DNA of 35,268 bases from a virus. Positions 5,424-23,825 of the stretch are shown here, piece after piece (within the stretch, counting starts at the first letter, position 1; the number at the start of each line of letters is the position of its first letter). The DNA is taken from the IMG/VR virus record IMGVR_UViG_3300045051_000437, positions 1-35,268 of that record; one strand, 5' to 3'. The notes beneath the pieces were generated by a model, which saw nothing but the letters and a program-made list of their open reading frames with translations, did no database searches and was not told the DNA's origin. A program made the position numbers and the translations under genes.

Positions 5424-5887
5424 CCCCCATCTTTCTACAGGTCCAACCAGTTATCAATCCGGCGGTCCGCGGGCTGTGTCCTAAACCCTACGACCGGCAT
5501 CCGAAGGGCTGCCCTAATGTCGGTAAGTGTAACCGCTGCCCTCCGAAAGCACCGATGTTTGACCGCGCATACGACTTATTTCAGCCTGTCTACGTCATAA
5601 TTAATTCTTTTGACCTCGGCGCGCATACCGTTAAAATGCGAGCATTACACCCTAGTTGGAGCTACGCACAACTCACCTGCGTTCTCTACTGGCAGGGTAC
5701 GGCTCGTAAGCAGCTAAACGATTTAATCAATGCCGTGTTGCCTGCATTTCCCGGCTATACGGCTACGTGGTGTCCTGAAGGCATGGGGGTGGACGTAACA
5801 GCCACTTTGGCAGTAGTGGGGGTGGTTTTGGAATGGCCGGCTGTGCAGATCGCACGTCAGGTCGCTCTGCTCGGTGCGCCCCTGTGA
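5417..5887 (+). CDS. Cys-rich putative metal-binding protein, 156 aa
   Basis: The GTG start at 5417 overlaps the end of the Nudix gene by seven bases. Residues 20-47 hold a cysteine cluster, read as LCPKPYDRHPKGCPNVGKC followed by NRCPPKAP, similar to DUF2284-type predicted metal-binding proteins that may carry an Fe-S cluster or zinc. The remainder is hydrophobic and includes WSYAQLTCVLYW and a late WCPEGMG. No enzyme motif is recognised. The gene is bounded by 15-bp direct repeats; deleting one repeat unit plus the gene would join the Nudix gene to the polymerase with the same GTGA overlap, suggesting that it is an inserted cassette. Confidence 0.65.
   Translation: MLAPIFLQVQPVINPAVRGLCPKPYDRHPKGCPNVGKCNRCPPKAPMFDRAYDLFQPVYVIINSFDLGAHTVKMRALHPSWSYAQLTCVLYWQGTARKQLNDLINAVLPAFPGYTATWCPEGMGVDVTATLAVVGVVLEWPAVQIARQVALLGAPL
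5872..5886. repeat. 15-bp direct repeat, right copy
   Basis: This is the second copy of the repeat at 5405-5419. It encodes the last four residues (GAPL) of the Cys-rich protein and supplies the GTG start of the DNA polymerase. The match between the two junctions supports the GTG at 5884 as a genuine start codon. Confidence 0.85.
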
Positions 5888-8022
5888 CCCACTCGGCCTA
5901 CACACGCCTGCCCGCCGGGCCGTCATACAGCACAGTGCTTCCCACGCTGGACTTCGAAACGTATTCTGAAGCTGGGTACTACCAGTCCGCCGATGGTCGG
6001 TGGCACGGTGTCACCAAGACGGACCCCGGCCTGGGGGCCGTCGGTGCGCCAGTCTATTCCGAGCATCCGTCAACCCTGATCCTGTCCCTGGCTTACGACC
6101 TGAAAACCGGCGCTGGCCCCCAACTGTGGACACCCGACTGTCCGCCGCCCGTCGATCTGTTCCAGCATATCCTATCGGGTGGGCTGCTTGAAGCCTGGAA
6201 CTCCGCATTTGAGTACTACATCTGGCTCAATGTGGCACACCGGCGGATGGGCTGGCCGGACCTGCCGTACTGGCAGCTACGGGATGCCATGGCGAAGTCC
6301 CGCGCCCACTCGCTGCCCGGCAAGCTGGAGAAAGCGGCCGAAGTCCTCCAGGCCGTCGAGCAGAAAGACGTCGCTGGCAAGGCACTGCTCCGCAAGCTGT
6401 CGGTCCCACAGCAGCCGACTGCCAAGCGGCCGGGCGGGCGGTGCGTCGATCCGGCGGCCCTCACGCAGCTGTACGCCTACAACGTACAGGATATCAAAGC
6501 CGAAGCGGCGGTCAGCGAATTGTGCCCTGACCTGTCGGCCTATGAAACCGACGTGTGGCTGCTCGATCAGTCTATTAACTTCCGAGGTGTACACATCGAC
6601 CAGGCTGCTCTGGCGGACTGCATATCTATCATCCGTCAGGCCGAGGCCAAATACACCGCCGAGCTGCGCACCATCACCCACGACACCGTGCAGACCGCCG
6701 GAGAGCTCGCTAAGATAACCGGCTGGCTGGGGGCAAACGGTTGCCACACGCGCAGTTTAGATGCAGACGCAGTGGAAGAGTTGTTGAACGGGACGGATAA
6801 TTGGTTGCTCCCTGAGAATTGCCGTCGAGTGCTGGAGATCCGCAGCATGCTCGGCGCGGCGGCAGTCAAAAAGCTGTTCGCCATCGAGCGTCGGCTGTCT
6901 GCGGATGGCAGGCTGCGGGATTTGTTCTCATACTGTGGCGCTGATAGAACTGGCCGTGCATCAGGAAAAGGGCCGCAACCTCAGAATTTTCCAGGGGGCA
7001 AGCCGTGGGAAGAAGTTATCAAAATACTGGCCATCATAGCGAGCCGCGACCTGGCGGCTGTCGAATCGCGGTACGGCGACCCGGTACAAGCTGTATCGGA
7101 CTGCCTGCGTGGACTGTTCGCCGCTGCGCCGGGTTGCGACCTGATTTGTTCGGATTTCAGCGCGATAGAAGCTGTCGTGCTTGCCGAGCTGGCGGGGGAA
7201 GAGTGGCGGCAAGAAGTTTTCAGGACGCATGGCAAGATATATGAGGCATCGGCAGCCACAATAACGGGCATCCCTTTTGAAGAATTTATGCGCTATAAGC
7301 AGGAAACTGGTCAGCATCATCCTATGCGGAAAAAGGTTGGCAAAGTGGCGGAGCTTGCCAGCGGGTACCAAGGAGCTGTTGGGGCATGGAAAGCCTTTGG
7401 TGCCGATGAGTTTATGACTGATGACGAAATACTGGAAAATGTAAAAGCATGGCGGCGGGCCAGTCCGCAGATCGTTAAATTTTGGTACGGGGTTCAGGAT
7501 GCAGCTCACATGGCCGTTCGGTACCCCGGCCGTTGCTACTCATACCAAGGGCAAGCCACTAAACACGGGCAGCCCCCCGCAATTACCTATGGCGTGAAGG
7601 ACGACATTCTGTACTGTTGTTTGCCGTCGGGCCGTAACCTGACGTACCACACGCCACGGCTTGAACCGAGCGTAACGTATAGCGGCAAGCCCACCATGCA
7701 GCTCACCTATATGGGTTGGAACAGTAATTACCTTAACGGGCCGGTAGGTTGGATGCGACTGGCAACCCACGGCGGCAAGCTCTGTGAAAATCTGGATCAA
7801 GCGATAGCCCGTGACATCTTAATGAACAGCATGCTAGCGGTCAGCCGGGCTGGGTACCCCATCGTGCTGCATGTTCACGATGAGATAGTGTCGGAGGTGC
7901 GGCACGGCTGGGGGTCGGTAGAAGAGTTCGAACAGATAATGTCACAAATGCCCGCCTGGGCCGCCGGTTGGCCGGTTAAAGCGGCAGGTGGCTGGCGAGG
8001 ACGACGGTATCGGAAGGATTAA
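5884..8022 (+). CDS. Family A DNA polymerase with 3'-5' exonuclease domain
   Basis: This replicative polymerase has 712 residues if it starts at GTG 5884, which overlaps the previous stop (GTGA); ATG 5833 is possible but would overlap that gene by 55 bases. The exonuclease domain shows LDFET (D23, E25), an NSAFEYYIW segment and YNVQD as the third acidic motif. The polymerase domain shows motif A (SDFSAIE, Asp424), motif B (RKKVGK...YQG, about 482-497) and motif C (HDE, 665-667). There is no 5'-3' exonuclease domain. Together with the DUF2800 and DUF2815 genes it forms a known type of phage replication cassette. Its stop codon overlaps that of the convergent gene. Confidence 0.95.
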   Translation: MTHSAYTRLPAGPSYSTVLPTLDFETYSEAGYYQSADGRWHGVTKTDPGLGAVGAPVYSEHPSTLILSLAYDLKTGAGPQLWTPDCPPPVDLFQHILSGGLLEAWNSAFEYYIWLNVAHRRMGWPDLPYWQLRDAMAKSRAHSLPGKLEKAAEVLQAVEQKDVAGKALLRKLSVPQQPTAKRPGGRCVDPAALTQLYAYNVQDIKAEAAVSELCPDLSAYETDVWLLDQSINFRGVHIDQAALADCISIIRQAEAKYTAELRTITHDTVQTAGELAKITGWLGANGCHTRSLDADAVEELLNGTDNWLLPENCRRVLEIRSMLGAAAVKKLFAIERRLSADGRLRDLFSYCGADRTGRASGKGPQPQNFPGGKPWEEVIKILAIIASRDLAAVESRYGDPVQAVSDCLRGLFAAAPGCDLICSDFSAIEAVVLAELAGEEWRQEVFRTHGKIYEASAATITGIPFEEFMRYKQETGQHHPMRKKVGKVAELASGYQGAVGAWKAFGADEFMTDDEILENVKAWRRASPQIVKFWYGVQDAAHMAVRYPGRCYSYQGQATKHGQPPAITYGVKDDILYCCLPSGRNLTYHTPRLEPSVTYSGKPTMQLTYMGWNSNYLNGPVGWMRLATHGGKLCENLDQAIARDILMNSMLAVSRAGYPIVLHVHDEIVSEVRHGWGSVEEFEQIMSQMPAWAAGWPVKAAGGWRGRRYRKD

Positions 8023-9700: not shown

Positions 9701-12013
9701 CTACCGCCTCCTTTGCTTAATAATTTTATAGCAATGCGGTGTCTCAGCATTTTCTGCAGCATCAGTCGAGGCCATGCACACAGTTTCCTGTCGTGTGTTT
9801 CTCCCTATTTTAAAAGGAGAAGAATAAGTTACACTAGGAGTACATGAGGCATTAAGAGTAAGGCAGTATTTTATCGTTGCGCCTTCCCCGTTAGAAGCTG
9901 TAACAAGTTGCGTTGCCTGATACCTACCTGGGAGCTTGTCGATTTCAGTAACCGGCGGTACCGTATCCGCTGGACCTCCGGCGGGAGCCTTCATCAGTAT
10001 CGCACCCTCCGATCTCCGAAGTTGAATACTGGTTATTGCATCGCCGGTCGTGCCATCAGCTTTCAACGGGTAATAAGTACCGCCCAAGTCTATCGGGAGG
10101 GAATAGGTGGCATAATCGGCCCCGCCCATCCCCGCTGTTCCGTTCGATCTATGGAGAACAATGGCATTAGTGTAGTCTCGCCGCCAGAGGTTGTGAGAGG
10201 TTCCCGAACCGGCATTGTTCAGTGTCGCGGTCGTGCCGAGAATCCAAGCAGTGTCTCTGGCGCCGCCGTTATATCCCGCAGCATCCGGTATCCCGATATT
10301 AGCGTCCATCGCCGGGAAGTACGCCCCCCAATGGTCTACAAGGTCGATGGTTGGTGCAGCGTCTACCGATAAGTGCCTTACGCTGCTGTCCTTTAGGTAT
10401 ACTTCGTCAATCACGTCATAGTAGCCAGAACCGGCAGCATGATAGTTGAAATACACTCCCGGATTTTGGCCTATTAGATGTTTCGATAGAGCGGCTATCG
10501 GCCCCCTATTTGCCCTATCCCACGCCCATGGGCCTCCAACGGAGCTTGGTGAGTAGGTCGTTGCGCTGTTATCCGTGTAGATGATGATTTCGTACCACGG
10601 ATGACCAGCATCATTGAGAGTAAGGAAATCGTCATAGGTCAACCAGCCTCGCGGGTCGGGAGTGGCAAGCATCGGATTTGTCCCACCAGTATTCCGGGCA
10701 TCGTTCAATCCCTCGTTGACCGTGTAATCCCCAGCTTTTACGAAATGAACAGTGGTCATTGTTGTAGCATCGGCAATGTAAGGATTACCCCCAACAAGCA
10801 AGCCGGGAATCAGAGTGTGAATGTACTCGTTGACGGCTGCATACTGATTATATGATGCGGTTATAAGCTCTGCGGCAGTACTGATTCCGTAATCCGTATC
10901 AGATGGTACAATGCCTGGGTCGGATAGAGACATGGTAATAACTGCATCGTCAAGTTTGATTGTGTTGAATGCGACAGCATCGTGAAGAATCTTGATTTTA
11001 TAAGCCAGAAACGCCGCGACTGATAACTTAGTCGTACCGTCGATCGTCTGCTGATTCGTTATGTTGAAATAGTGATGATTGGAAGCCCAAAAACTCAGCC
11101 GCGCCTGATGCCTGAATTTGGCGGTGGCACCCGCTGGCGGAGTTGGGTTATATTCTACTTCTGTCCCTACGTTGATACGGTTTGAGTCCGTTGCATCCCA
11201 TCCCCTACAATGAGAATTTATCCCGTCCTTGTACCAGGGATCGCCTTTTATCGTGTTGATTACCGGCGCGGAAGTTGCCGAGGTGAAAGCAAACTTGATG
11301 AAATATTTGTTCCGAGAACCGTTGACAATCGTACGCGCCCAATTTGAAGGAGGGGTGAATGAGATCGTCCCGTCAACGGTCATGCCGCTCGTTCCGTCAG
11401 TGACCGTTAAAGTTGCCCATGTCGAGCCATTCCAATACTGCCACGTTCCGACAAGGGAAGTCGCCGCCGTTCTCACGTCAAAGGTGGCGAAGTCGAAAGG
11501 CAGTTCACTCCCTATGTAGAGGTTCTTGTCTATTGTTGTCCAAGGTGATGACCCGGCGTAAGCCGTTGCCGTCTTGTCCGTATAGACTCCCGCCGATTCA
11601 AGCATAATACCTTTGACCTGAGTTCCCCCGGAAATTTCAAAGGCATCGAATTTATCCATCCCGCCCCATGCTTGGCCTCTTGTGTAGGTAAAATCTATCT
11701 TTGAGTGCGCCAGCATAGCCTCCGCCGAAATGCCTTTCAGTTGGGCGAAGTCAGATAAAGGCGCGTACTCCGACACCATCGCCAGACCTTTAGCGTCAAT
11801 GTACTCTGACCAGATAAGACCGGGGAACCCCGCCATGTCAGCAGTAGTCGTCCAAGTCATATCTGAATTGATAATGCCGAAGCGGTCTTTCATCCACTGG
11901 AATTGCGCGGTGGTAATTTGTCTACCGTAGTGAGATGTTATACCTCTGTTAATTCCAGCATTAGAAGTCATTGGCATCAGGCACAGCAATAATAGAATAA
12001 ATAGTTTTCTCAT
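9701..12013 (-). CDS. Secreted multidomain protein, probable glycoside hydrolase-like
   Basis: The 770-residue protein starts with a clear Sec signal peptide (MRKLFILLLLCLMPMTSNA, cleavage after residue 19). Next comes a region that may form an enzyme barrel, interrupted at about residues 125-260 by a beta domain with WQYWNGSTWATL, similar to carbohydrate- or fibre-associated modules. The barrel-like part continues with ITSHYGRQITTAQF before the insert and PWYEIIIYTDN after it. The C-terminus (about 690-765) resembles the chitobiase C-terminal domain: DTVPPVTEI, GATIKYCL, then CMASTDAAEN. A polysaccharide-degrading or surface-binding role is inferred; no catalytic pair can be named. A signal peptide is unusual for a virion protein. 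Base composition is more AT-rich than in the flanking genes. Confidence 0.6.
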   Translation of the reverse strand: MRKLFILLLLCLMPMTSNAGINRGITSHYGRQITTAQFQWMKDRFGIINSDMTWTTTADMAGFPGLIWSEYIDAKGLAMVSEYAPLSDFAQLKGISAEAMLAHSKIDFTYTRGQAWGGMDKFDAFEISGGTQVKGIMLESAGVYTDKTATAYAGSSPWTTIDKNLYIGSELPFDFATFDVRTAATSLVGTWQYWNGSTWATLTVTDGTSGMTVDGTISFTPPSNWARTIVNGSRNKYFIKFAFTSATSAPVINTIKGDPWYKDGINSHCRGWDATDSNRINVGTEVEYNPTPPAGATAKFRHQARLSFWASNHHYFNITNQQTIDGTTKLSVAAFLAYKIKILHDAVAFNTIKLDDAVITMSLSDPGIVPSDTDYGISTAAELITASYNQYAAVNEYIHTLIPGLLVGGNPYIADATTMTTVHFVKAGDYTVNEGLNDARNTGGTNPMLATPDPRGWLTYDDFLTLNDAGHPWYEIIIYTDNSATTYSPSSVGGPWAWDRANRGPIAALSKHLIGQNPGVYFNYHAAGSGYYDVIDEVYLKDSSVRHLSVDAAPTIDLVDHWGAYFPAMDANIGIPDAAGYNGGARDTAWILGTTATLNNAGSGTSHNLWRRDYTNAIVLHRSNGTAGMGGADYATYSLPIDLGGTYYPLKADGTTGDAITSIQLRRSEGAILMKAPAGGPADTVPPVTEIDKLPGRYQATQLVTASNGEGATIKYCLTLNASCTPSVTYSSPFKIGRNTRQETVCMASTDAAENAETPHCYKIIKQRRR

Positions 12014-13413
12014 TATTTGTACCCCAAGATGACGTTATCAAAAGTCAACGTTTGCGTAGTTGCTACGTTAGACGAGAAGTTGCCAACCGAAGCAATTGTT
12101 CCAGTTCTATCCATTGTTATATAGTTTGTAAGCGGAATAACTTCAGCATCGTTGATGAGTAGCCTATATTCCCCATTGTTTGTTGAAGTATCACTACTGG
12201 CCTTACCTTGGAGTTTGAAAGTATAGGTTGTCCCGGCCACAAATGCGTATGTTGTCGTACTGGCAGTTGTATAGGTGTTTGAGCCATTAGTGTATGCTAC
12301 CCTGACTTGAGATAGGTTTGTACCGTTATTCTTGAGGTCAACAGCAATTATGGTTGTAGATGAAGCTCTGAATGAACCGACCGTAGTGAACCCGTTGTTA
12401 CCAAGTCCGGTGACTGCAGATGGCTTTACATCGAACTGTAACTGAATATCTCCATGCGGAGTTAGACCCGACCATGTTACGTAAGAACTGGTTGTTTGCG
12501 CTACCATCGCAATAACATACTGACCCGACACAATAGAACCTATACTACCACCGTCCGTCTCAGTGTTGAAAGTATCGGGAGCACCACAGGTATTCACTGT
12601 AGCGTTATCGCCACACGCGAAATTGTTTGATTTGTAGGTGATGTAAGCAGTTGCGGTACTGTTATTCGTTACTGCCGCGCTGGTAATTGCTGCTAGGTCG
12701 TTTCCAGCCGCATCCTCCATCGAGTTAGAGGCTCCGTTGAAGTCGATGTTACAACTCGTTGAATCGCTCGCCAGGACGGTTCCACCTAGAGAGTAGACAT
12801 GTGAGTTTGTGTCATTCCCGGAGACATAAGTGACCGGGATATTCGTCGCTGACGGGCAATCCACACCCCAGTTCGTGTTATTGTACCCGGCCCCTTGTGT
12901 GACGTTTTCGCTGAAAGCCAATGTAAGGGTAGTTCCGTTTGTAGCCACGGTTGCGCTGGAAAGAGTGGGCGCTATCACGTCAGCCGCACCGCTACCTGCC
13001 AGAGTCACTACAACATTAGACAGGTTCGGCGCGGAGGCGGTCAGCGTTCCCGACTTCGCTCCGGCAGACCCCGGCGTGAATCGCACTGTTACCGTGCAAG
13101 TCGCCAATGATGCCAAGTCGAAAGGCTCGGTCCCGCAGGTAGTGGATAACTTGCTGAACCCTGTACCCGCCACCGTTAGCGTTACGGCTTCCAGTAAGTC
13201 ATTGCCGGGATTGCTCAATGTGAAGGTGTAGTCCGTATTCGTCCCGGTGTCGTGAGATCCGTAGTCATGGGATGACGGCGTAAGAGACATGCCAGATTGC
13301 AGATCTACCCATGACACGCTCGACTTTTGTCCGAAGTTGAAGCCGAAGCCGAAATCGAAGGCGTGAGCGTTGCCGGCCATCAGAACGGTTATTAACAGTA
13401 TTCGCTTAATCAC
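12013..13413 (-). CDS. Secreted Ig-like/SPD-2-type adhesin-like protein
   Basis: A GTG start at 13413 follows GGAGG. The 466-residue protein has a Sec signal peptide (MIKRILLITVLMAGNAHA). Residues 40-145 resemble an ASPM/SPD-2/Hydin (choice-of-anchor) Ig-like domain: YGSHDTGTNTDYTFTLSNPG, then FTPGSAGAKSGTLT. Residues 147-255 resemble an SwmB-type bacterial repeat (SSATVATNGTTLTLAFSENV). The last 200 residues look like a concanavalin/LamG-type sandwich. These are extracellular bacterial modules, not usual virion parts. The stop overlaps the next ATG (TAATG), so it is expressed with the secreted protein downstream. A function at the cell surface is inferred. Confidence 0.65.
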   Translation of the reverse strand: MIKRILLITVLMAGNAHAFDFGFGFNFGQKSSVSWVDLQSGMSLTPSSHDYGSHDTGTNTDYTFTLSNPGNDLLEAVTLTVAGTGFSKLSTTCGTEPFDLASLATCTVTVRFTPGSAGAKSGTLTASAPNLSNVVVTLAGSGAADVIAPTLSSATVATNGTTLTLAFSENVTQGAGYNNTNWGVDCPSATNIPVTYVSGNDTNSHVYSLGGTVLASDSTSCNIDFNGASNSMEDAAGNDLAAITSAAVTNNSTATAYITYKSNNFACGDNATVNTCGAPDTFNTETDGGSIGSIVSGQYVIAMVAQTTSSYVTWSGLTPHGDIQLQFDVKPSAVTGLGNNGFTTVGSFRASSTTIIAVDLKNNGTNLSQVRVAYTNGSNTYTTASTTTYAFVAGTTYTFKLQGKASSDTSTNNGEYRLLINDAEVIPLTNYITMDRTGTIASVGNFSSNVATTQTLTFDNVILGYK

Positions 13414-14479: not shown

Positions 14480-15043
14480 TTACCCCCTCATCCAGTCGTT
14501 GGTCGCTGCGTATTTTACCAGGCGGATGTGCTCACCCTGGCTCGTCAGGTCGAAACTCGCCGCCCCGAGGACCGTACCAGTCGCCGGAGCGATGGTCACC
14601 GGATTGGCCGAAGCATCCAGCTTGCTGATTTCGTAGACATCCGGCGCTGATGGGTCATTGGCGGACAGAATATTGGCATTGTACGCAGCGCTGGTGGCAT
14701 CACCGAACACGAATGCCGTCGATGCGGCGGCACCCGCCCCGCCGCTCGACACGTTGGAGTATACATTATCGTTCGACCAGATCAGCACATCGTTGGCATC
14801 GTAAAGCGCCATGCTGTACACACCAAGCAGCCACACCCCCGCACGGCCCGCCGAGTCGAGGACTACCGGGTTGTCGTTCAGAATGGCGCTTCCGCTGTCG
14901 GTATATGTGTTCTTGGGATAGGACTGATCAGGCCCAGCCGTCGTGCCGGGCTGAGCGGTGTACAGCTTGCCACCCACCAGCGGCACGCCGGCATTGGTAA
15001 ATTCGCGGAAAAACGGAGCAGGTGCGAGGGTTGTCAGAGGCAT
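14480..15043 (-). CDS. Tail fibre N-terminal module only (truncated paralogue)
   Basis: The 187-residue protein aligns over its full length with residues 1-190 of the large fibre. Shared landmarks are FREFTNAGVPLVGGKLYTAQPGT, split here as FREFT/GVPL/GGKLYTAQPGT, then NPVVLDSAGRA, YEISKLDASANPV and NDWM at the end. Even the bases before the ATG match (TGGAGCCAC then CCATGCC). The protein stops two residues after NDWM, where the large fibre continues into its beta-helix. The N-module probably attaches a fibre to the tail. Alone it could act as an adaptor, a decoy or an assembly regulator, or it could be the 5' part of a broken second fibre. Confidence 0.75.
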   Translation of the reverse strand: MPLTTLAPAPFFREFTNAGVPLVGGKLYTAQPGTTAGPDQSYPKNTYTDSGSAILNDNPVVLDSAGRAGVWLLGVYSMALYDANDVLIWSNDNVYSNVSSGGAGAAASTAFVFGDATSAAYNANILSANDPSAPDVYEISKLDASANPVTIAPATGTVLGAASFDLTSQGEHIRLVKYAATNDWMRG

Positions 15044-15061: not shown

Positions 15062-17575
15062 CTATCTAGCTGACCAGTTGATTGTCTGTGTCGTTCCGGC
15101 CGTGCCATCGTGCTTCTTGATGGCAACCGTAATTGTCATAGAGCTATGCGCCGTCACGGTGGCAATTTCCCCTGCCACGGTCCCGGTTACGGAAGTATAT
15201 CCAGGATCGTACCCCATGCCGTGCGCTATCGTCCCGCCATCGGCTATGGACGGTGCACTGCCGTTGACCGTTCCTATCGTCGCCCAGTCAGTGTTGAGCA
15301 CGTTGTTATTGCCTGTCGTCAGTCGTTTCCAGCCGGTCAAGCCCGAAAGTGTAGACGATGATGTATTGAAAACAATCTGCCCTGCTGACCACGTTCCGTA
15401 TGTAGGCATAGCGGCTGCGAAAAATACGCTGTTCGCTATGGAGTCATTGGAGACGGTATAGCCGGGAAGGGCTGTACTGCCCGATGCAAAAGCTAAAGGA
15501 GCTCCGCCATCGTCTATCCAAAGCACATTGTTGATTCTGTTACCTATATCATACAGGGTTGTTTCTGTGCTCACCACGGGGATTTCTGCACGATAGGGGT
15601 ACGTTGCTCCGCCATCATCGCTACGTTGGATTCGCAGTCTGGTATAGGGTGTGCTGGCAACTACGAGTTTTGCCGTATGCGTAGCGGTTACTGCTACGGT
15701 TGTAGGAGCCGACGCAGCAGTTTGCCGATAGAAGCTCCCGAAGGTCGTTACCCGGTACAGGTAGTTTTGTGTTGCCAATGATGAAACAGCGGTTATCTCC
15801 GTGCTGTCCGCCCCGCTCGTTATACTGGCGGCTGACAAAGCGGCGTGACTGATAATGTCGCTGCCTACCGGCAATACTCGCCATCCACCCTCACGGTAGA
15901 AAATCCGCATATTGCCGGAAAGCTCGTTCATCACGTTGTCAATGGCGGTCCCTATTGAGGGAGTCCCGCCGGCTACGTTGCTGGCAATCCCGATCCCTGA
16001 TTCAAGGTTACTGTAGAGAGTGGTCGAAGGATAGCCAGAGCGCAACATGCCGCCCGTATTGCCATTCAGTGTTATCTCCGAGGCCTGAGACATGCTGTGA
16101 ATCATTATGGCATGTTGCCCCGGAGTCGGGTCGTTCCAGTAGGTGGTGAAGCGGTTGTTGTTGAGCGTTAAGGCGCTGCGCTGCAATGGTGAAGTTGTGG
16201 CATCATCAAGGTAAATCGGGTAGTAAGTCCCGTTATCCTGGCGGAAGAAGTTATTTGACATGTCCACCACGGAATTGCGGATAGTGAAAACGTGGTTGGT
16301 ATCCATGAACTCATAATGCCCACCAGAGACGGAAACCTGCGAACCGTTTATCTCATAATGCCCGCCGTTACAGGCTTGAATCACCGCGCCCTGAGTGCTG
16401 TTCAGTTTTAGCACATCGGTATCGGTGGCGAATACCTGAGAGAACAGAAGAGAGTCGCCCTTTTGCGTGTTCTCGAAAAGCCATCCTCCCGCCTTCGGAG
16501 TAGTCCAATAGACTTCTGAGAATTGCATCTGGTCGCAATAGTCGTAAGCCCTCACCCCGAAAGTGACGGAATTGAACAGGACCTTTTCAACGATCATCCC
16601 GGTCTGATTCACTTTGGCAAAAGACACATCACTTGAACCGGAGCCGTCAATGGTTAAATTTTCCACGATAAAGCGGGGATGCGGCGCGTATGCCTTTGAT
16701 ATTGCCCCACCCGAAGTCTCATTGACATAGAAGGCGTAACCGGCTGAAAAGTTGTTCAGGAGAATGCGCGTACCCTTGCCGGAACCTCTGAGAATGTAGG
16801 TCTTATTGGTTGCCGTGCTGTCAAGATAGATAGGGTCATTGTCTATGATGAAATCGCCTTCGGGAAGAAGGACGTTTGAGCTTGCGGCAAAAGCGGCCTT
16901 GATGCTACCGCCATAAGCCCGCACATCCGCCCACGGGTCTTTTGTTATAACATCAGCCACGGTCAAAGTCGCCGTCCCGTTGGTGAGGTCGGTATCCTCC
17001 ACGGCGGGCAGCCCGTTCGTCGTCATCCAGTCATTGGCAGCTGCGTATTTTTTAAGCCGGATTGCACTACCGCGCACTGTCAAATCGATGTACGCCCGAC
17101 CGAGTACCGTACCAGTAACAGGAGTAATCCTAACTGGGTTGGCCGAAGCGTCCAGCTTACTGATCTCATAAACTTCCGGCGCATCCGGATCATCCGCCGA
17201 CAAAATATTGGCATTATACGTTGCCAGCGTGGCATCCCCGAAGATAAGCACCGTACCAGCCAGGTCACCCGCACTGCCCGAGCCAGCGCCCGACACGTTA
17301 TCCTGCGACCAAATCAGCACACCGGCGGACGTGTAGAGTGCCATGCTGTAATTACCGGATAACCACACATTGGCGCGCCCCGTCGAGTCGAGAATTACCG
17401 GGTTGGTATTCTGCGCTGAAGCTACTCCGTCTTGATAGGTTACTTTCGGATAGGGTTGCAGCGGCCCCGCCACCGTGCCGGGCTGAGCAGTGTACAACTT
17501 ACCGCCGTCAAGCGGGATACCCGCGTCGGTAAACTCACGGAATTTCGGCATGGGTGAGAGTGAGGCTATTGGCAT
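15062..17575 (-). CDS. Tailspike or tail fibre with pectate-lyase-like beta-helix
   Basis: The start is ATG 17575 because TGGAGCCAC precedes it, exactly as at the paralogue; the in-frame ATG at 17623 lacks such a site. The 837-residue protein has an N-terminal attachment module (1-190) and a beta-helix that begins with the classical DVRAYGGSIKAAFAA motif (about 215-230) and VLLPEGDFII. This is followed by repeated Asn/Gly turns to about residue 560, an Ig-like stretch (near 590-680), and a C-terminal module ending TINWSAR. This is the usual plan of receptor-binding proteins that cut or bind surface polysaccharide. It overlaps the preceding gene by ten bases. Confidence 0.85.
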   Translation of the reverse strand: MPIASLSPMPKFREFTDAGIPLDGGKLYTAQPGTVAGPLQPYPKVTYQDGVASAQNTNPVILDSTGRANVWLSGNYSMALYTSAGVLIWSQDNVSGAGSGSAGDLAGTVLIFGDATLATYNANILSADDPDAPEVYEISKLDASANPVRITPVTGTVLGRAYIDLTVRGSAIRLKKYAAANDWMTTNGLPAVEDTDLTNGTATLTVADVITKDPWADVRAYGGSIKAAFAASSNVLLPEGDFIIDNDPIYLDSTATNKTYILRGSGKGTRILLNNFSAGYAFYVNETSGGAISKAYAPHPRFIVENLTIDGSGSSDVSFAKVNQTGMIVEKVLFNSVTFGVRAYDYCDQMQFSEVYWTTPKAGGWLFENTQKGDSLLFSQVFATDTDVLKLNSTQGAVIQACNGGHYEINGSQVSVSGGHYEFMDTNHVFTIRNSVVDMSNNFFRQDNGTYYPIYLDDATTSPLQRSALTLNNNRFTTYWNDPTPGQHAIMIHSMSQASEITLNGNTGGMLRSGYPSTTLYSNLESGIGIASNVAGGTPSIGTAIDNVMNELSGNMRIFYREGGWRVLPVGSDIISHAALSAASITSGADSTEITAVSSLATQNYLYRVTTFGSFYRQTAASAPTTVAVTATHTAKLVVASTPYTRLRIQRSDDGGATYPYRAEIPVVSTETTLYDIGNRINNVLWIDDGGAPLAFASGSTALPGYTVSNDSIANSVFFAAAMPTYGTWSAGQIVFNTSSSTLSGLTGWKRLTTGNNNVLNTDWATIGTVNGSAPSIADGGTIAHGMGYDPGYTSVTGTVAGEIATVTAHSSMTITVAIKKHDGTAGTTQTINWSAR

Positions 17576-17949
17576 GGTGTGGCTCCAAACAGTGCGTTGA
17601 CTGCATTCTCGTATTCGTTCCACTCGTTGCCGGTCAGGATAATAAACAGCCGTTCAAGTGCATCCGCCTCCATGTGTGCTTTATGGTAGGGGGCTGCGGA
17701 GGACAAACCGGGATCGTCAAGTTCTGGGTGGGTGATGTCAAACTCATCAACGTCGGCATCCGGCACGCCGAGCTGATCATTCCGAAATTTTTCATGCAAT
17801 TCATGCAGAAGTACAGCCATGGAGTGCGCTGGGTTGTCGAGTCTAGTTATCCGAAACTCAATACTGGTAGAAGTTTCCCAGTAATCACCTATCTGCCCGG
17901 CGATCCGCTGTTCTTCCTGGGGAATAAATTTTATATTGATGTCACGCAT
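17566..17949 (-). CDS. Conserved-looking phage protein, 127 aa, unknown
   Basis: The ATG at 17949 overlaps the stop of the ATP-grasp gene (TGATG). The protein begins with beta strands (MRDINIKFIPQEEQRI) and a central helix, SMAVLLHELHEKFRNDQLG (about 43-61). The HELHE sequence recalls zinc-metalloprotease helices but is not HExxH, and no third ligand is clear. A second His/Glu-rich helix, YHKAHMEADALERLF, follows at about 88-102. These His and Glu residues could still bind a metal. The gene links the ATP-grasp enzyme to the fibre gene in one transcription unit. Confidence 0.55.
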   Translation of the reverse strand: MRDINIKFIPQEEQRIAGQIGDYWETSTSIEFRITRLDNPAHSMAVLLHELHEKFRNDQLGVPDADVDEFDITHPELDDPGLSSAAPYHKAHMEADALERLFIILTGNEWNEYENAVNALFGATPCQ

Positions 17950-19595
17950 CAGAACTCGATCCCCACGGACTTCATTTTTTCAATGCCTTTCTGCGCTCGT
18001 TCCAACACGTCGGACTCATACTTCACATCCTCACCATGCACCGATTCTGCGTATTTCAATGCCATTTTACAGGCTTCTTCAGGAGTATTACCCATGCCGA
18101 TTGCACCGCCCAAAAACGAACCGTTATTATTAGGCACAATGTAATACTTTCCACCGATAATGCAATAGTTTTTTAATCTGACAAACCGCAGAGCTTCGGG
18201 TGGAAACTCGATCGGCAGCCAATGACCATCCTCAAGCCACGAACTGGTGAGGATAACCTCCGCCCCATACTGATAAGCAGGCTCCAAAACCGGCAGTTCA
18301 CCGTGCGCCAGGCTCCAAATGGCGCGGGCGTAGCAATGCTCTTTGTACATCTCAGGCATCAGCTCACCCGGCGGGCTCGGCATGCGCATCGTGCCGTCGA
18401 TGTAGTAACCCCTCTGCTTCTCATCAATCCGGACCTCCGTGGAGTACTGCCCGTTCATTCCGAGTTTTTCAAAGACCGGCGCCATGGCATCATTGACGGC
18501 TTTGAGGATTTCAGGCTGCTCCTTGAACACCTTGCAGAAGTACCCGGCATCCTTTGCCTCCAGCCCACACAATGAATTTTCCGGTATCTGGCCGTTCAAG
18601 TTAAATGTGTCCACCCCGATTTCACCGACCGAATCGATCTTGTCTTGGACAAGAAATACCTGCGATTCGGCATGATGCCCGAGCCGAGTTTCCAGATCCT
18701 TCAGCCAGACGGATGACAGAAATTTTCCCAGCCACCGCTTTGTCTCCATCAGGCCGCGGTGATGCGAAACCTTGATGAAACAGCCACCCTCTTTGCGGCC
18801 CTTCAGGTAGTCACACAGGGCGGTGATACCCTTCAATTTCTCGGTATGAGCGGTTGGCAGTCCCACTTTTTCAAGCTGTTGCTGAAAAAACCACTTGTCG
18901 AGTTCCAGTCTGTCACTATCCCCCGAGCCGCAGACCGCCCAGCCGTCGGCTTTCAACCGCCGCTGTTCCCCCGCAAACCCAATATCGGGAAAGAAAAACA
19001 CCACGTCAGGCTTGCATCCACTGTGCTCTTCCAGAACCGGCACCAGATCATACACCCGCTCGACATCTTTAAGCCCTGTGCCGATCACATCGCGATCCGG
19101 GCATGGATAGGCTTCTACATTGGGGATGTAAAGAATTACTTTGCCGTAGCTTTCGGCCAATTTCTCCGCCAGATGGATAGAAATGCCATGATCGACCATG
19201 ACCAACGTTTTGTCGGAAAGGTCAACTACTTGGGCGGCTTTTCCCGGTTGTGGATCATCCTGCGGTACCTCCTTGACTGGTGGCGGTGCGGACCGCTCGG
19301 CCTTGGTGAGCCGCTGCACGATGCCCCGAGCGGCGGCGTAGATGTGACTGTGCAAGCCTTCGGGTGGCACTTTGCCTTGTATTTTGGTGTAAATATCGGG
19401 TTCCCGCTGAGAGAGCCATTGTACGGCTTGTTTACGGGATAGCCACATCCTTTGATTAACGCTCGGTACGAATCCCAGCCCCCCATTTTTATCGGGGGTG
19501 AGGCCACTCCGCTCTTGAAGTGTAACATGTGAATCATCCGGTTTTCCCACAAAAATCCGGCCTCTTTGTTTTATGGCTGGTAAAAGCTGATCCAC
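17949..19595 (-). CDS. ATP-grasp protein related to PurD, with phage N-terminal domain
   Basis: The 548-residue protein starts at GTG 19595 after an AGGGGGG site. Residues 1-92 form a small domain seen in phage proteins (AIKQRGRIFVGKPDD, then GFVPSV, LSRKQAVQW and LHSHIY). After a Pro-rich linker comes a PurD-like (GAR synthetase) part: a Rossmann-like region 128-230 with GFAGEQRRLKADG and VCGSGDSDRLELDKWF; an ATP-grasp fold to about 480, with likely ATP/metal ligands in STEVRID and YYIDGTMRMP; and a C-terminal PurD-like tail (GNTPEEACKMAL). It should join a carboxylate to an amine using ATP. The substrate is unknown, and purine synthesis is unlikely in this context. An HNH gene sits just upstream on the opposite strand. 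Confidence 0.75.
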   Translation of the reverse strand: MDQLLPAIKQRGRIFVGKPDDSHVTLQERSGLTPDKNGGLGFVPSVNQRMWLSRKQAVQWLSQREPDIYTKIQGKVPPEGLHSHIYAAARGIVQRLTKAERSAPPPVKEVPQDDPQPGKAAQVVDLSDKTLVMVDHGISIHLAEKLAESYGKVILYIPNVEAYPCPDRDVIGTGLKDVERVYDLVPVLEEHSGCKPDVVFFFPDIGFAGEQRRLKADGWAVCGSGDSDRLELDKWFFQQQLEKVGLPTAHTEKLKGITALCDYLKGRKEGGCFIKVSHHRGLMETKRWLGKFLSSVWLKDLETRLGHHAESQVFLVQDKIDSVGEIGVDTFNLNGQIPENSLCGLEAKDAGYFCKVFKEQPEILKAVNDAMAPVFEKLGMNGQYSTEVRIDEKQRGYYIDGTMRMPSPPGELMPEMYKEHCYARAIWSLAHGELPVLEPAYQYGAEVILTSSWLEDGHWLPIEFPPEALRFVRLKNYCIIGGKYYIVPNNNGSFLGGAIGMGNTPEEACKMALKYAESVHGEDVKYESDVLERAQKGIEKMKSVGIEF

Positions 19596-19616
19596 AAAAA
19601 CGCCCCCCTAAACATC

Positions 19617-19645
19617 TTGACTTAAGAATCAAAACTGCGTATAAC
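19617..19645 (+). promoter_or_regulatory. Sigma70-type promoter for the HNH gene
   Basis: TTGACT (19617-19622) and TATAAC (19640-19645) are separated by 17 bases, close to consensus. AAAGGAGGT follows before ATG 19665. It points against the surrounding late genes, giving the HNH gene independent expression. Confidence 0.75.
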
Positions 19646-19664
19646 TCGAAAAAGGAGGTACACC

Positions 19665-20108
19665 ATGGCGTACAAAGATCCCGCAGCAGCTAAAGCAAAT
19701 GCAAAGGCTCACTATGAGAAAAACAAAGAGCTGTATATACTGCGAGCAAAAAAACGTCGTGAAAACGACCCTGAACACGCTAATGAGCTCGGACGAAAAC
19801 GAAAAGCTATCCGAATGCGGACTGATGTTGAATTTCGTGAAAAAAACCGAGCACACGCTCGTAAGTTTTACGCAGAGAATAGAGAAAAAGTGCTTGCAAA
19901 AAAGGCTGAGTACAACAAAAGCGACGCCTATAAAGCACAAAAACAGGTTCGATTGGCCATCCAGCGCGGAGAACTCGTACGTCCTTCTTTCTGTTCCCAA
20001 TGCGGCACTACTGAATTTGCTATCGAAGCACATCATGAAGATTACTCCCGTCAACTTGATGTGGTTTGGCTCTGTACACTTTGTCATGGTGCCCGCCACT
20101 CAAAATAA
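19665..20108 (+). CDS. HNH endonuclease, probable free-standing homing enzyme
   Basis: The 147-residue protein has a basic helical N-terminus (about 1-105) rich in Lys and Arg, probably for DNA binding. A C-terminal zinc-bound HNH-type motif follows: CSQCG at about 112-116, AIEAHHEDYSRQLDVVWLC and CHGARH at the end. It is the only plus-strand gene in the late region, has its own promoter and strong ribosome-binding site, and is AT-richer than its neighbours. All of this points to a mobile gene. It sits between a truncated copy and a complete copy of the same 5' coding sequence of the ATP-grasp gene. The cleavage site is probably in that coding sequence; this is inference. Confidence 0.85.
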   Translation: MAYKDPAAAKANAKAHYEKNKELYILRAKKRRENDPEHANELGRKRKAIRMRTDVEFREKNRAHARKFYAENREKVLAKKAEYNKSDAYKAQKQVRLAIQRGELVRPSFCSQCGTTEFAIEAHHEDYSRQLDVVWLCTLCHGARHSK

Positions 20109-20181
20109 CGTGCGTGTCGTCGGGCTTGCCGGGGTGCAGTCTGCCGCGCAGGCGGATGGCGGGTAGCAGGTGGAGGGTCAT
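20101..20181 (-). pseudogene. Truncated 5' copy of the ATP-grasp gene, cut off at the HNH gene
   Basis: ATG 20181 overlaps the stop of the terminase-like gene (ATGA). The first 27 codons encode LLPAIRLRGRLHPGKPDD and THVIL, matching LLPAIKQRGRIFVGKPDD and SHVTL of the ATP-grasp protein at 16 of 23 positions. Homology ends at 20101-20106, at the HNH stop codon. The frame then runs on antisense inside the HNH gene to a stop at 20020, giving a nonsense tail. Most matching residues use different third codon bases, so this is not a recent duplication. It may instead remain from a second gene with the same domain. Confidence 0.7.
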
Positions 20182-20882
20182 TCGGTGGGCTCCCATTCGC
20201 CGTCTACCAATCGACGGGCAGCTTTAGCATCTAAATCCAACCTCAGATTGTCATAATAATCATCTGGAAGATTATGCTCATTTTCCTTTACCCCTAGATG
20301 GTACACGCTGTACCCGCGAAGTGGCTCCTTGATAAATTTTTGGTATGCCCAGTGTTCTTGGGTCTGCGGATATGTAATAACCACAACCTGCGGAGTGTGC
20401 GTAAACGGATTTTTACCCCCACTCTCATTTCTGGAAGGAAAGCGCAGCCGACCGAGTAGCGTTACTAAAACCCCCGGTTCAACATTTTCAGCAGCGTCTA
20501 TGATCGCGCCTGTCAACTCAATACGATCATCAATTTCTTCGGGCGTACAAAAGACAACTTCAATCTGACGATCTGTTATTTCGTATTTAAAGGTCTTATT
20601 TTCGACATCTATCCCGCCCCCAAACTCACTAGGGGGAAACCACATGTCAAGCGTTCTCGCCACTTCACCCTGCGTCACAATCAAGAATCGAGACTTGCGA
20701 ATACGATTCTCATCAGCTTCGACCCACTTCGATTGCAGCATTATCATCTTAAACAGAGCCGCTACAGTTGCTCCTGCTCCAATACACCCGGATAGCAGTA
20801 TCGCCCGGCTGGTTTTATCCTCCAAAAAGCTCATAGTGACCGGACCGGGATTGTACTCAATTTTAAAAGGCTCTCTTTTCAT
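20178..20882 (-). CDS. Terminase large subunit-like ATPase domain, catalytic residues altered, no nuclease
   Basis: ATG 20882 follows GGGGGAGGAG. The 234-residue protein follows the N-terminal ATPase part of a podovirus-type terminase: RFLIV, then DMWFPPSEFG, IEVVFCTPEEIDD, ELTGAIIDAAENV, GRLRFPSR, HWAYQKF, NEHNLPDDYYDNL and DGEW. The Walker A position reads GCIGAGAT (32-39), with Ala38 where Lys is expected. Walker B reads IIDAAEN (127-133), with Ala130 where the catalytic Glu is expected. The C-terminal nuclease domain is absent. It probably cannot hydrolyse ATP for packaging and is more likely a pseudo-enzyme. A separate functional terminase should lie outside this window. A near-consensus promoter is directly upstream. 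Confidence 0.7.
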   Translation of the reverse strand: MKREPFKIEYNPGPVTMSFLEDKTSRAILLSGCIGAGATVAALFKMIMLQSKWVEADENRIRKSRFLIVTQGEVARTLDMWFPPSEFGGGIDVENKTFKYEITDRQIEVVFCTPEEIDDRIELTGAIIDAAENVEPGVLVTLLGRLRFPSRNESGGKNPFTHTPQVVVITYPQTQEHWAYQKFIKEPLRGYSVYHLGVKENEHNLPDDYYDNLRLDLDAKAARRLVDGEWEPTE

Positions 20883-20924
20883 AATGCTCCTCCCCCACAA
20901 CTTTTATTTGGCAGCTATGGGGGT

Positions 20925-20952
20925 ACTATACCACTACTGATACAACTGTCAA
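20925..20952 (-). promoter_or_regulatory. Sigma70-type promoter for the accessory genes
   Basis: On the minus strand TTGACA (20952-20947) and TATAGT (20930-20925) are separated by 16 bases, with TGG just before the -10 box (extended -10). It lies in the 75-base gap after the largest ejection-type gene and drives the terminase-like gene and what follows. It is the clearest promoter within the late block. Confidence 0.75.
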
Positions 20953-20957
20953 TTAAA

Positions 20958-23825
20958 TTATTCGTTCTGCGGCTCTTCGCCTGCCGCTTTAACGGATACC
21001 TGCATCTGAACAAGCAGCGGCTTCAACCAGCGAGCGGCATTGGCAGACACATCCGCAGGTCGGGCGTTGGCTATCTTCATCAACACTTTCGCGGCTTCCG
21101 GGTTCATCAGACCCTCTTGCAAAATCGCGGTCACTTTTTTTTCATTATGCTCCAAACCCGCCGCTATAAAGCTCTTTATGAAATTTTTGGCAGCCGAAAA
21201 CGTCCAGCCGTGTCCGGTTGTGACCGCAGCTAAAGCGGCCAGTTTTTCAGCACCGTTGGTAATCTGATCACCGAAACCCTTTTCAATCGTTGTGGCCCCC
21301 CCCGCATACGACACATGCTTATTGCGGCCTATGACCCCCATCATCTGCCCGTAGTCTTTAAGAGCCTGCATGGCTTTGGCACCATACATTTTTTCAATGG
21401 ACGGGCCGAACTGTTTAATCAGCTTGGCAGCTTGCATAGCCGTCATTTCGGGATTACCCAGAACGTCGGCTTTAGACAGTTCTCTAATCTCAAGCTCTCG
21501 CTCGATAGCCCGTGGTATCTGCCCCTTGATGACCCGCTCGACGGCGGGCGTCAGGCCGAGGTTATCCAGAGCGGCGGAGTTCTGGCGCACCCACGCGACG
21601 GCCCGCGGAATGTTCATCACGCCGGTATTCGCATCGACGGTGCGGGTGATAAGCTGCTCGACGGCGTGCGGCATGGACTGCTCGGCGGCTTGCTCGCGGC
21701 CCACTGCCTTAATAAGATCCTTGCTGCCCGTCGGCGTGAAAAACTTTGCCGGTACCTGTTCGGCGGGGAGGCGCAGACCACTCGCCTGCTCGCCGGATTG
21801 CAGCACGTCCTGCACGGCGCCCCGGTAGAACCGCTCAAATTTTTCTTCGCGGGAGTATTTCTTGGCGGCGGCGTACTTGGCGGCCACATCCTCCGCTGGT
21901 TGCAGGTTGGCGAGCTGATCCGCAATAGCGTCCCGCTTGGTCAGCAGATCATGCGACTTCTGCGATGTGGCGTTGCCGTGCCACAGCTTATCTTTGTTCA
22001 GAATAAGCGTTTCCGGCCCGTCAATGTCGATCCCATGCACCGCATCGTACCCTTCTTTCCGCAGCACGTCGATCAACGGCTTGTCATGTACTAGAGAATG
22101 CTGGTCAATCCCACGTTCTGCAACCCGATAAGGATCAAACTTTATGCCAGTTAGTTTTTCATAGACTTTCTGCCCTTCCGGTGATTCGAGGTCGAGAATC
22201 TTCGCATCGGCTGGCAGCGTACGCTCAAGCACTTTACCGTCTTTGCTCTTGTTGATGTAGTATTCGGCAGTTGAGCGGTCCGTCGTCCAATAATCGCCGG
22301 TCTGCATGCCTTTGCTGCTGCCCGTCGGATCGCCTTCTTTAAACGGCACTTCCCCACGATACAGCTTAACGCCACCGCCCTGCACCGGCACTTCGCGCTC
22401 CGGAAACTGCTTCTTAAATAAAGCTATAGCCCGCGCCTCCGCGCCGGTATCCGTCTTGTCGGCCTGCTTATACATGGCGGGATGCACACCGGCATCCTTG
22501 AGAGCCGCATGGACCGCCGGAATGTCGGGCTTCGACTCGACGGCCGCAAGCTGCTTTTCTACGGCTGCGAGCTCGGTTTTCAGCTTGGACGGGTAGACGA
22601 TCTGATCGGCGTGCAGCGCCACATCCCCCGACTCGGCGGCGGTGCCCATAGCTTCGAAGTCGCGGGCAATCGCGTCTTTCAGGCCACCGAGCAGGCGGCG
22701 GGTGTTGGGGTTCTTCGACTCACCGATCAGCCCGCCGATGGTGCGCTCCACGTCCTGCAAGCCCTGCACCGTCTTGGGCTGCTTGGCGGCGTAATCCATA
22801 ATGCCTTTAACCATCTGTTTGTCCTGCTTCAACAGCGATCCGCCGAGCAGTTCCTTACCGGCGTCCCGCAGGTTGTCAGCAGGCATCGGGTATTCCGGCA
22901 CGTCGGCCCACATCTCCGCCTCACGACTGAGCACGGGCGCTTTAGCGGCCTCGATAGCCTTTACCTGCGCCTGCCCGGTGAGAGCAGCGGGCTGCACGGC
23001 CGGCAGCTCGGCGGGCTTACCGAGCGCACCCGTCAAATTATTGACCGCCGCTTTGTTCAGTTCGGCATCCGAGTATTTAAGCCGCTCGGCAAACGCCGGG
23101 TCTTTGGCCGACATGGACTGCTCCAGGGCCGCCGACTTGTAGTTGCCGCTCGCCTGACCGGGAGTGGGCGTAACGGTGGGCTTGAGCCGGTTCACCAGCG
23201 CGTCGGTTTCAGTCTGGCGGAGCGCGTTCGCCTCTGCGGCGGCTGACGTGCCGGGGGCTTGCGCTTCGGAAAACTGTTGGGCGGCACGCCAGGCGTTCCG
23301 CTTGTCGGAAAACGGCACGCCGCGCTGCCCGGCGGCGGCCAGCTTATTCAGCCCTGCGCCTATCAGCTTGCCGCCGAGCTGCCCCCCTACCTCCATACCT
23401 ACGCCGGTAAGTATGTCTTTACCTGTCTCGTAGGTCATCCCGCCGAGCGTGTTGGGGGCCGTACCGGGTGCCACCCCAAGGCCCAGCGACTCGTCAAGCA
23501 GCCGGGCTCCACGCTTGCCGATGGCGTAGCCAAGGCCCGCACCTGCCACGGTGCCAGCCACAGGGGCGGCCCCCGAGCCGAGGATCGCCCCACCGGCCAC
23601 GCCGGCACCTTCAAGCAACGGCGTGTACAGCTTGCTGGCGGTTTTTTTCCAGGGCGCTGCGCCTTGGCTGATCTCCGGACCGGCAGGGGTGGCCGACACC
23701 TTGCCGGGCAGGTCGCCGTAAGCATCCGGGTACTTGGCAGCGAGTTTACCCGCCAGGGTGGCATCGTCCATGTCGCCGTAGTCGGGATACTTCTCGCGGA
23801 ATTTTACCAGTTCAGGTACAGGCAT
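20958..23825 (-). CDS. Large ejection-type virion protein with ADP-ribosyltransferase-like region
   Basis: The 955-residue protein starts right after the stop of the preceding gene (TAGATG). It opens with two short Tyr-Pro motifs (KYPDYGD, KYPDAYGD), then a Gly/Ala-rich hydrophobic stretch at about 70-105 that could insert into a membrane. Long helical regions follow. Residues about 470-615 resemble an ADP-ribosyltransferase fold: KLYRGE, then GDYWTTDRSTAEYYI, LPADAKILDL, GYDAVHG and GPETLIL. Position after two other ejection-type proteins suggests delivery into the host with the DNA, as for P22 gp16. Enzyme activity is not proven. A structural pore role is the main alternative. Confidence 0.7.
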   Translation of the reverse strand: MPVPELVKFREKYPDYGDMDDATLAGKLAAKYPDAYGDLPGKVSATPAGPEISQGAAPWKKTASKLYTPLLEGAGVAGGAILGSGAAPVAGTVAGAGLGYAIGKRGARLLDESLGLGVAPGTAPNTLGGMTYETGKDILTGVGMEVGGQLGGKLIGAGLNKLAAAGQRGVPFSDKRNAWRAAQQFSEAQAPGTSAAAEANALRQTETDALVNRLKPTVTPTPGQASGNYKSAALEQSMSAKDPAFAERLKYSDAELNKAAVNNLTGALGKPAELPAVQPAALTGQAQVKAIEAAKAPVLSREAEMWADVPEYPMPADNLRDAGKELLGGSLLKQDKQMVKGIMDYAAKQPKTVQGLQDVERTIGGLIGESKNPNTRRLLGGLKDAIARDFEAMGTAAESGDVALHADQIVYPSKLKTELAAVEKQLAAVESKPDIPAVHAALKDAGVHPAMYKQADKTDTGAEARAIALFKKQFPEREVPVQGGGVKLYRGEVPFKEGDPTGSSKGMQTGDYWTTDRSTAEYYINKSKDGKVLERTLPADAKILDLESPEGQKVYEKLTGIKFDPYRVAERGIDQHSLVHDKPLIDVLRKEGYDAVHGIDIDGPETLILNKDKLWHGNATSQKSHDLLTKRDAIADQLANLQPAEDVAAKYAAAKKYSREEKFERFYRGAVQDVLQSGEQASGLRLPAEQVPAKFFTPTGSKDLIKAVGREQAAEQSMPHAVEQLITRTVDANTGVMNIPRAVAWVRQNSAALDNLGLTPAVERVIKGQIPRAIERELEIRELSKADVLGNPEMTAMQAAKLIKQFGPSIEKMYGAKAMQALKDYGQMMGVIGRNKHVSYAGGATTIEKGFGDQITNGAEKLAALAAVTTGHGWTFSAAKNFIKSFIAAGLEHNEKKVTAILQEGLMNPEAAKVLMKIANARPADVSANAARWLKPLLVQMQVSVKAAGEEPQNE

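Follow-up and report, generated by a model that had tools for sequence, protein, structure and literature searches.

WHO elements of Torulaspora and Lachancea yeasts combine an endonuclease gene with a resistant 3' end of FBA1, and the old 3' ends are found displaced (Coughlan et al. 2020, PMC7282813). Mobile mORFs with duplicated carboxy-termini occur in the mitochondria of Glomus and Allomyces, where diverged native ends were left behind (PMC3630166). Phage HNH genes are known within essential genes, as with T4 mobA (gene 39-60) and Aeh1 mobE (nrdA), and T4 has a linked change that may guard against cleavage (PMC2988022, PMC5009743); the free-standing seg and mob endonucleases of T-even phages bring about co-conversion of flanks (PMC2988022). 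Here we describe a locus in the virus record IMGVR_UViG_3300045051_000437, positions 1 to 35,268 of which were analysed and are referred to as the window. In this locus two diverged alleles of the start of one gene, encoding an ATP-grasp-like protein, flank an HNH endonuclease gene, and the base composition of the complete copy shifts at the codon that matches the end of the incomplete one. The arrangement is best explained by homing of the HNH endonuclease together with a replacement start for the ATP-grasp gene, an explanation to which we give roughly an even chance of being correct. The features concerned are the following.

17949..19595, minus strand: complete ATP-grasp-like gene of 548 amino acids, with a GTG start and TAGGGGGG upstream
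19515..19595, minus strand: proposed replacement start, codons 1-27 of the complete copy, which are AT-rich and after which third-position composition changes
19617..19645, plus strand: predicted sigma-70-like HNH promoter (TTGACT, 17-nucleotide spacer, TATAAC), read from the sequence by consensus match only
19651-19658, plus strand: predicted HNH Shine-Dalgarno sequence AAAGGAGG, likewise a consensus match only
19665..20108, plus strand: HNH endonuclease gene of 147 amino acids, matching phrog_2340 (endonuclease) with E 1.1e-18
20107..20181, minus strand: displaced ATP-grasp gene start of 25 codons, MTLHLLPAIRLRGRLHPGKPDDTHV, with its ATG at 20181

The displaced start, hereafter the remnant, was compared with codons 4-26 of the complete gene and proved identical at 16 of 23 residues (tblastn 69.6%, E 2.7e-7), the 23rd matched residue lying already within the HNH sequence. 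A hidden Markov model of the N-terminal domain, made from relatives only, matched the remnant with E 5e-5 in a six-frame search of the window. Judged by this similarity, the remnant is a genuine start of the ATP-grasp family. When 23 gene starts in the window were screened for such echoes, the only other strong one came from a pair of tail genes that share a full-length domain, and there were two weak matches (E 0.017). The two copies of the ATP-grasp start have 35 of 66 bases (53%) in common and use the same codon at 3 of 15 identical residues, with a third-position G+C content (GC3) of 0.92 in the remnant and 0.27 in codons 1-26 of the complete copy. This is too diverged for a recent duplication, and one of the two should therefore derive from another lineage. 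The frame that begins with ATG 20181 enters the antisense HNH sequence and ends after 53 codons. The HNH stop codon TAA (20106-20108) overlaps the last remnant-homologous bases, and the remnant end corresponds to codon 24-25 of the complete gene. Both ends have GTTA in common and nothing more, so that the reading of a 7-bp direct repeat there was rejected. These data bear out what a preliminary description of the sequence had claimed about the repeated gene start, its end at the HNH stop codon, its different third bases, and the opposite-strand HNH gene with its own promoter that fills the gap. The same description had called the complete start recoded; it is indeed coded differently, but is better termed a diverged homologous allele.

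On the minus strand the order of the locus is a 955-amino-acid gene, p240, the remnant frame, the HNH gene (itself on the plus strand), the ATP-grasp gene, a 127-amino-acid gene and the tail genes. The features upstream of the remnant are these.

20178..20882, minus strand: p240, 234-240 amino acids, resembling the ATPase half of a large terminase
20925..20952, minus strand: p240 promoter, predicted to be strong and sigma-70-like (TTGACA-16-TATAGT, with TG before the -10 element)
20958..23825, minus strand: 955-amino-acid upstream gene, which directly precedes a single ATP-grasp gene in all relatives

Relatives of the ATP-grasp protein were found in five IMG/VR contigs, namely L003 (43%), L013/L007 (41%), L012 (38%), and L081 and L082 (60%). 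The last two are identical in sequence at the ATP-grasp locus, so that the five contigs represent four distinct lineages (L003, L012, L013/L007 and L081/L082). In the search of viral contigs, patterns derived from the window protein retrieved none of them and a two-sequence alignment retrieved the L003 contig only, while the hand-made patterns EGLHSHIYAA and HK[TA]HMEAD led to L007, L012, L081 and L082. All relatives have a 955-like gene, one ATP-grasp gene directly after it (overlapping or nearly so), a 127-amino-acid gene and a tail gene. Across the four lineages neither a second start nor p240 is present, HNH matches are missing from the whole of each contig, and the ATG leads straight into the ATP-grasp body in 4/4, which is the comparison that the preliminary description had proposed. 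The HNH gene was absent from contigs G001, G002, G005, G006 and G007, these empty alleles being those of distant relatives and some of the contigs possibly being fragments. Since the relatives are single-copy and free of the HNH gene, the HNH side of the window arrangement is derived. Isolated phages gave neither a DNA match to positions 17000-21500 nor a protein match to the window ATP-grasp gene or its N-terminal module, and the ATP-grasp protein of L003 gave a chance-level match only; no relative turned up among bacterial genome contigs.

The composition of the complete gene changes close to the point where the remnant ends. GC3 positions numbered 7 of 26 in codons 1-26 compared to 321 of 522 in the rest of the gene (0.27 and 0.61; Fisher p 0.0007). 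The best change-point over the whole gene falls after codon 27, within 3 codons of the remnant end; a change as strong was obtained in 1.9% of shuffles (p 0.019), and one both as strong and within 3 codons of the remnant end in 0.1% (0.001). The same codons show no such dip in L003, L012 and L013 (GC3 at 15-19 of 27), and no other tested window gene had a significant break near its start. The HNH gene, with a GC3 of 0.35, resembles the AT-rich new start. The break at codon 27 thus lends support, modest in strength but specific, to the import of a start along with the AT-rich HNH gene, and composition favours the displaced remnant as the native start and the joined start as the foreign one. As a separate observation, sharp GC3 change-points were also seen inside the genes at 12013-13413 (minus strand, codon 233) and 5833-8022 (plus strand, codon 365), which suggest further mosaic joints.

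The HNH protein has its zinc-binding CxxC pairs and HH/D/H motif intact and has about 65 viral relatives. A short tail after CHxxxH is usual among these relatives, and the protein therefore looks complete. Its promoter was missed by the promoter scanner because this program demands T as the final base of the -10 element. No Rfam match to a group I intron was obtained within 17500-21500 at E values up to 1. A group I intron-encoded endonuclease was rejected, as there is no intron in the interval and the HNH gene is antisense to the ATP-grasp gene.

According to the explanation that we favour, a free-standing HNH gene of the homing type would move as a unit with the adjoining ATP-grasp start from a diverged donor phage. 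The HNH protein would cut or nick the ATP-grasp gene of the recipient at its conserved GKPDD[T/S]HV motif, close to codon 25. The downstream side of the break could then pair with its donor homologue and copy back through the donor start and the adjacent HNH gene, while the upstream side, lacking homology, would be end-joined just past the HNH stop codon, with GTTA alone in common. In this way the gene would be whole again, beginning with a diverged start that brings its own GTG and ribosome-binding site and is presumably not cut, and the 25 codons of the former start would end up upstream as a remnant. Cleavage, resistance, the direction of transfer and end joining are all inferred, and the resistance of the complete start is plausible solely because the site has diverged (53% of bases identical). 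As the relic places the predicted cut site within a few codons, the idea is directly testable.

Several observations weigh against homing with a replacement start. Exchange of the N-terminal module was seen in a comparison of the following ATP-grasp genes.

L012: 7947-9566
L081: 6401-8053
L003: 10255-11844
window: 17949-19595

L081 and L012 are 83% identical in alignment columns 1-101 (the module) and 39% in the body, whereas the window and L081 are 53% identical in the module and 66% in the body, and L003 and L012 53% and 65%, respectively. In resampled quartets the window grouped with L003 in columns 1-101 and with L081 in columns 126-571, each in 1000/1000 resamplings, and FastTree agreed on the main groupings. 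The exchanged segment ends in the linker near columns 101-125 rather than at codon 25. Members of this family thus swap the 5' part habitually, with no need of a resident HNH gene, so that ordinary illegitimate or homologous exchange stays a rival. Moreover, when 65 related HNH loci were screened for gene-start repeats on both sides, only short low-complexity matches and no convincing case were found. The composition test depends on 27 codons and was picked with the pattern already in view. Nor does the similarity of 22 residues single out a native start: the remnant has its best match in the complete start (15/22 residues), followed by L013 (14/22), and L003 matches the complete start at 12/22 and the remnant at 10/22. 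The remnant has only 25 codons left and no close relative exists, which weakens any choice of a native copy. The proposal of the preliminary description that a diverged relative supplied the insertion by homing is thereby left in an intermediate position, gaining from the empty relatives and the codon-27 break and losing from module exchange that proceeds without HNH at the locus.

The most serious rival is ordinary phage mosaicism, which we regard as a real though lesser possibility. It would take one illegitimate recombination between a left phage contributing the 955-amino-acid gene, p240 and the first 25 ATP-grasp codons, and a right phage in which the HNH gene already stood upstream of the ATP-grasp gene; the HNH gene would be a passenger that did not cause the break. 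A single junction suffices for the structure, which also counts against homing, as does the fact that the module exchange described above took place without HNH. The mosaic reading is further helped by p240, which is another insertion at the same spot, and by a junction with merely about 4 bp in common. It leaves unexplained, however, why an endonuclease gene sits exactly between both alleles and why GC3 changes at codon 27, beside the remnant end. The mosaic differs from homing only in whether HNH caused the break and whether the body after codon 27 is that of the recipient.

The alternative offered by the preliminary description was decay of a second gene; on this reading the phage would once have carried two tandem genes that share the N-terminal module, and the first would have lost its body as HNH entered. 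This has lost ground and seems improbable, as each of the four related lineages has just one copy, tandem full genes, which the description had named as the refuting observation, were seen in none, and the remnant has just 53% of its bases in common with the complete copy, even though stand-alone and fused copies of one domain do coexist here in tail genes 14480-15043 and 15062-17572 and the remnant ATG, like that of a true gene, is coupled to the stop of p240. We consider it very improbable that the contig merges reads of two related phages at the locus. The source is a metagenome contig and this junction turned up in no second contig, but the gene order on either side agrees with that of the relatives, the 300 bp to each side of the junction share no word longer than 8 bases, which is too short for a usual assembly join, and changes in tetranucleotide usage there stay inside the range recorded at other cuts.

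The window ATP-grasp protein consists of an N-terminal module of ~100 residues, with a nearly invariant EGLHSHIYAAA motif, followed by an ATP-grasp body like that of glycinamide ribonucleotide (GAR) synthetase. It had no match in Pfam or PHROGs. A profile of four sequences matched GAR synthetase with E 3.7e-5, and the first structural matches of its predicted model (predicted local distance difference test score, pLDDT, 72) were GAR synthetases, so that the name ATP-grasp is supported by both sequence profile and predicted fold. The remnant ATG overlaps the p240 stop codon as ATGA. The p240 product is a lone ATPase half without the nuclease half, and its best match by E-value is a 477-amino-acid protein. 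No relative of p240 was found among viral contigs, nor does it occur at the corresponding place in any ATP-grasp relative; it is a separate accessory insertion. The tail genes 14480-15043 and 15062-17572, adjacent on the minus strand, have in common an N-terminal domain of ~184 residues (68% identity in amino acids, 69% in nucleotides), which in L012 and L081 forms a stand-alone gene of ~180 amino acids.

The locus can be compared with several known systems. It resembles the seg and mob genes in that an intergenic HNH gene lies beside a possible target and flanking sequence may be transferred along with it. However, co-conversion by these genes as a rule overwrites the sequence of the recipient, no duplicated start would remain, and their cut site is usually hundreds of bases distant or more (PMC2988022). 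The mobA and mobE insertions split their targets into separate coding pieces, whereas here the gene is whole through a supplied start and a dead start remains. The closer likeness is to the layout of WHO elements and mORFs, which is found here as an HNH gene between a complete hybrid gene and a fragment of the displaced old end, at the 5' rather than the 3' end. In mORFs, too, a foreign gene end beside an endonuclease gene yields a hybrid functional gene and a diverged native remnant, though the native ends were identified there through close relatives, which the phage case lacks (PMC3630166). In WHO elements the endonuclease gene and the adjoining target end are mobile together, and each entry shifts the old end aside as a fragment; they differ in concerning the 3' end of FBA1, in their intein-derived nuclease, in their repeated clusters and in having had cleavage tested (PMC7282813), whereas the phage case concerns a 5' end and an opposite-strand HNH gene and is a single case known here from sequence alone. 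We tentatively propose, with somewhat less than even confidence, that the locus is a phage 5'-end counterpart of WHO elements and mORFs, in which the HNH gene and a cleavage-resistant start form one mobile unit that left a 25-codon relic. The literature searched contained no phage case of end replacement, which is no proof of absence; the case would be new in its 5' end, its HNH nuclease, its antisense orientation and its phage host. If true, phage homing endonucleases would swap gene beginnings, beyond inserting beside genes or splitting them, and this would provide a concrete engine for the exchange of N-terminal modules in phage genes. The end-replacing strategy of yeasts and fungal mitochondria would then have arisen independently in phages, through another family of nucleases and with the opposite gene end as its target.
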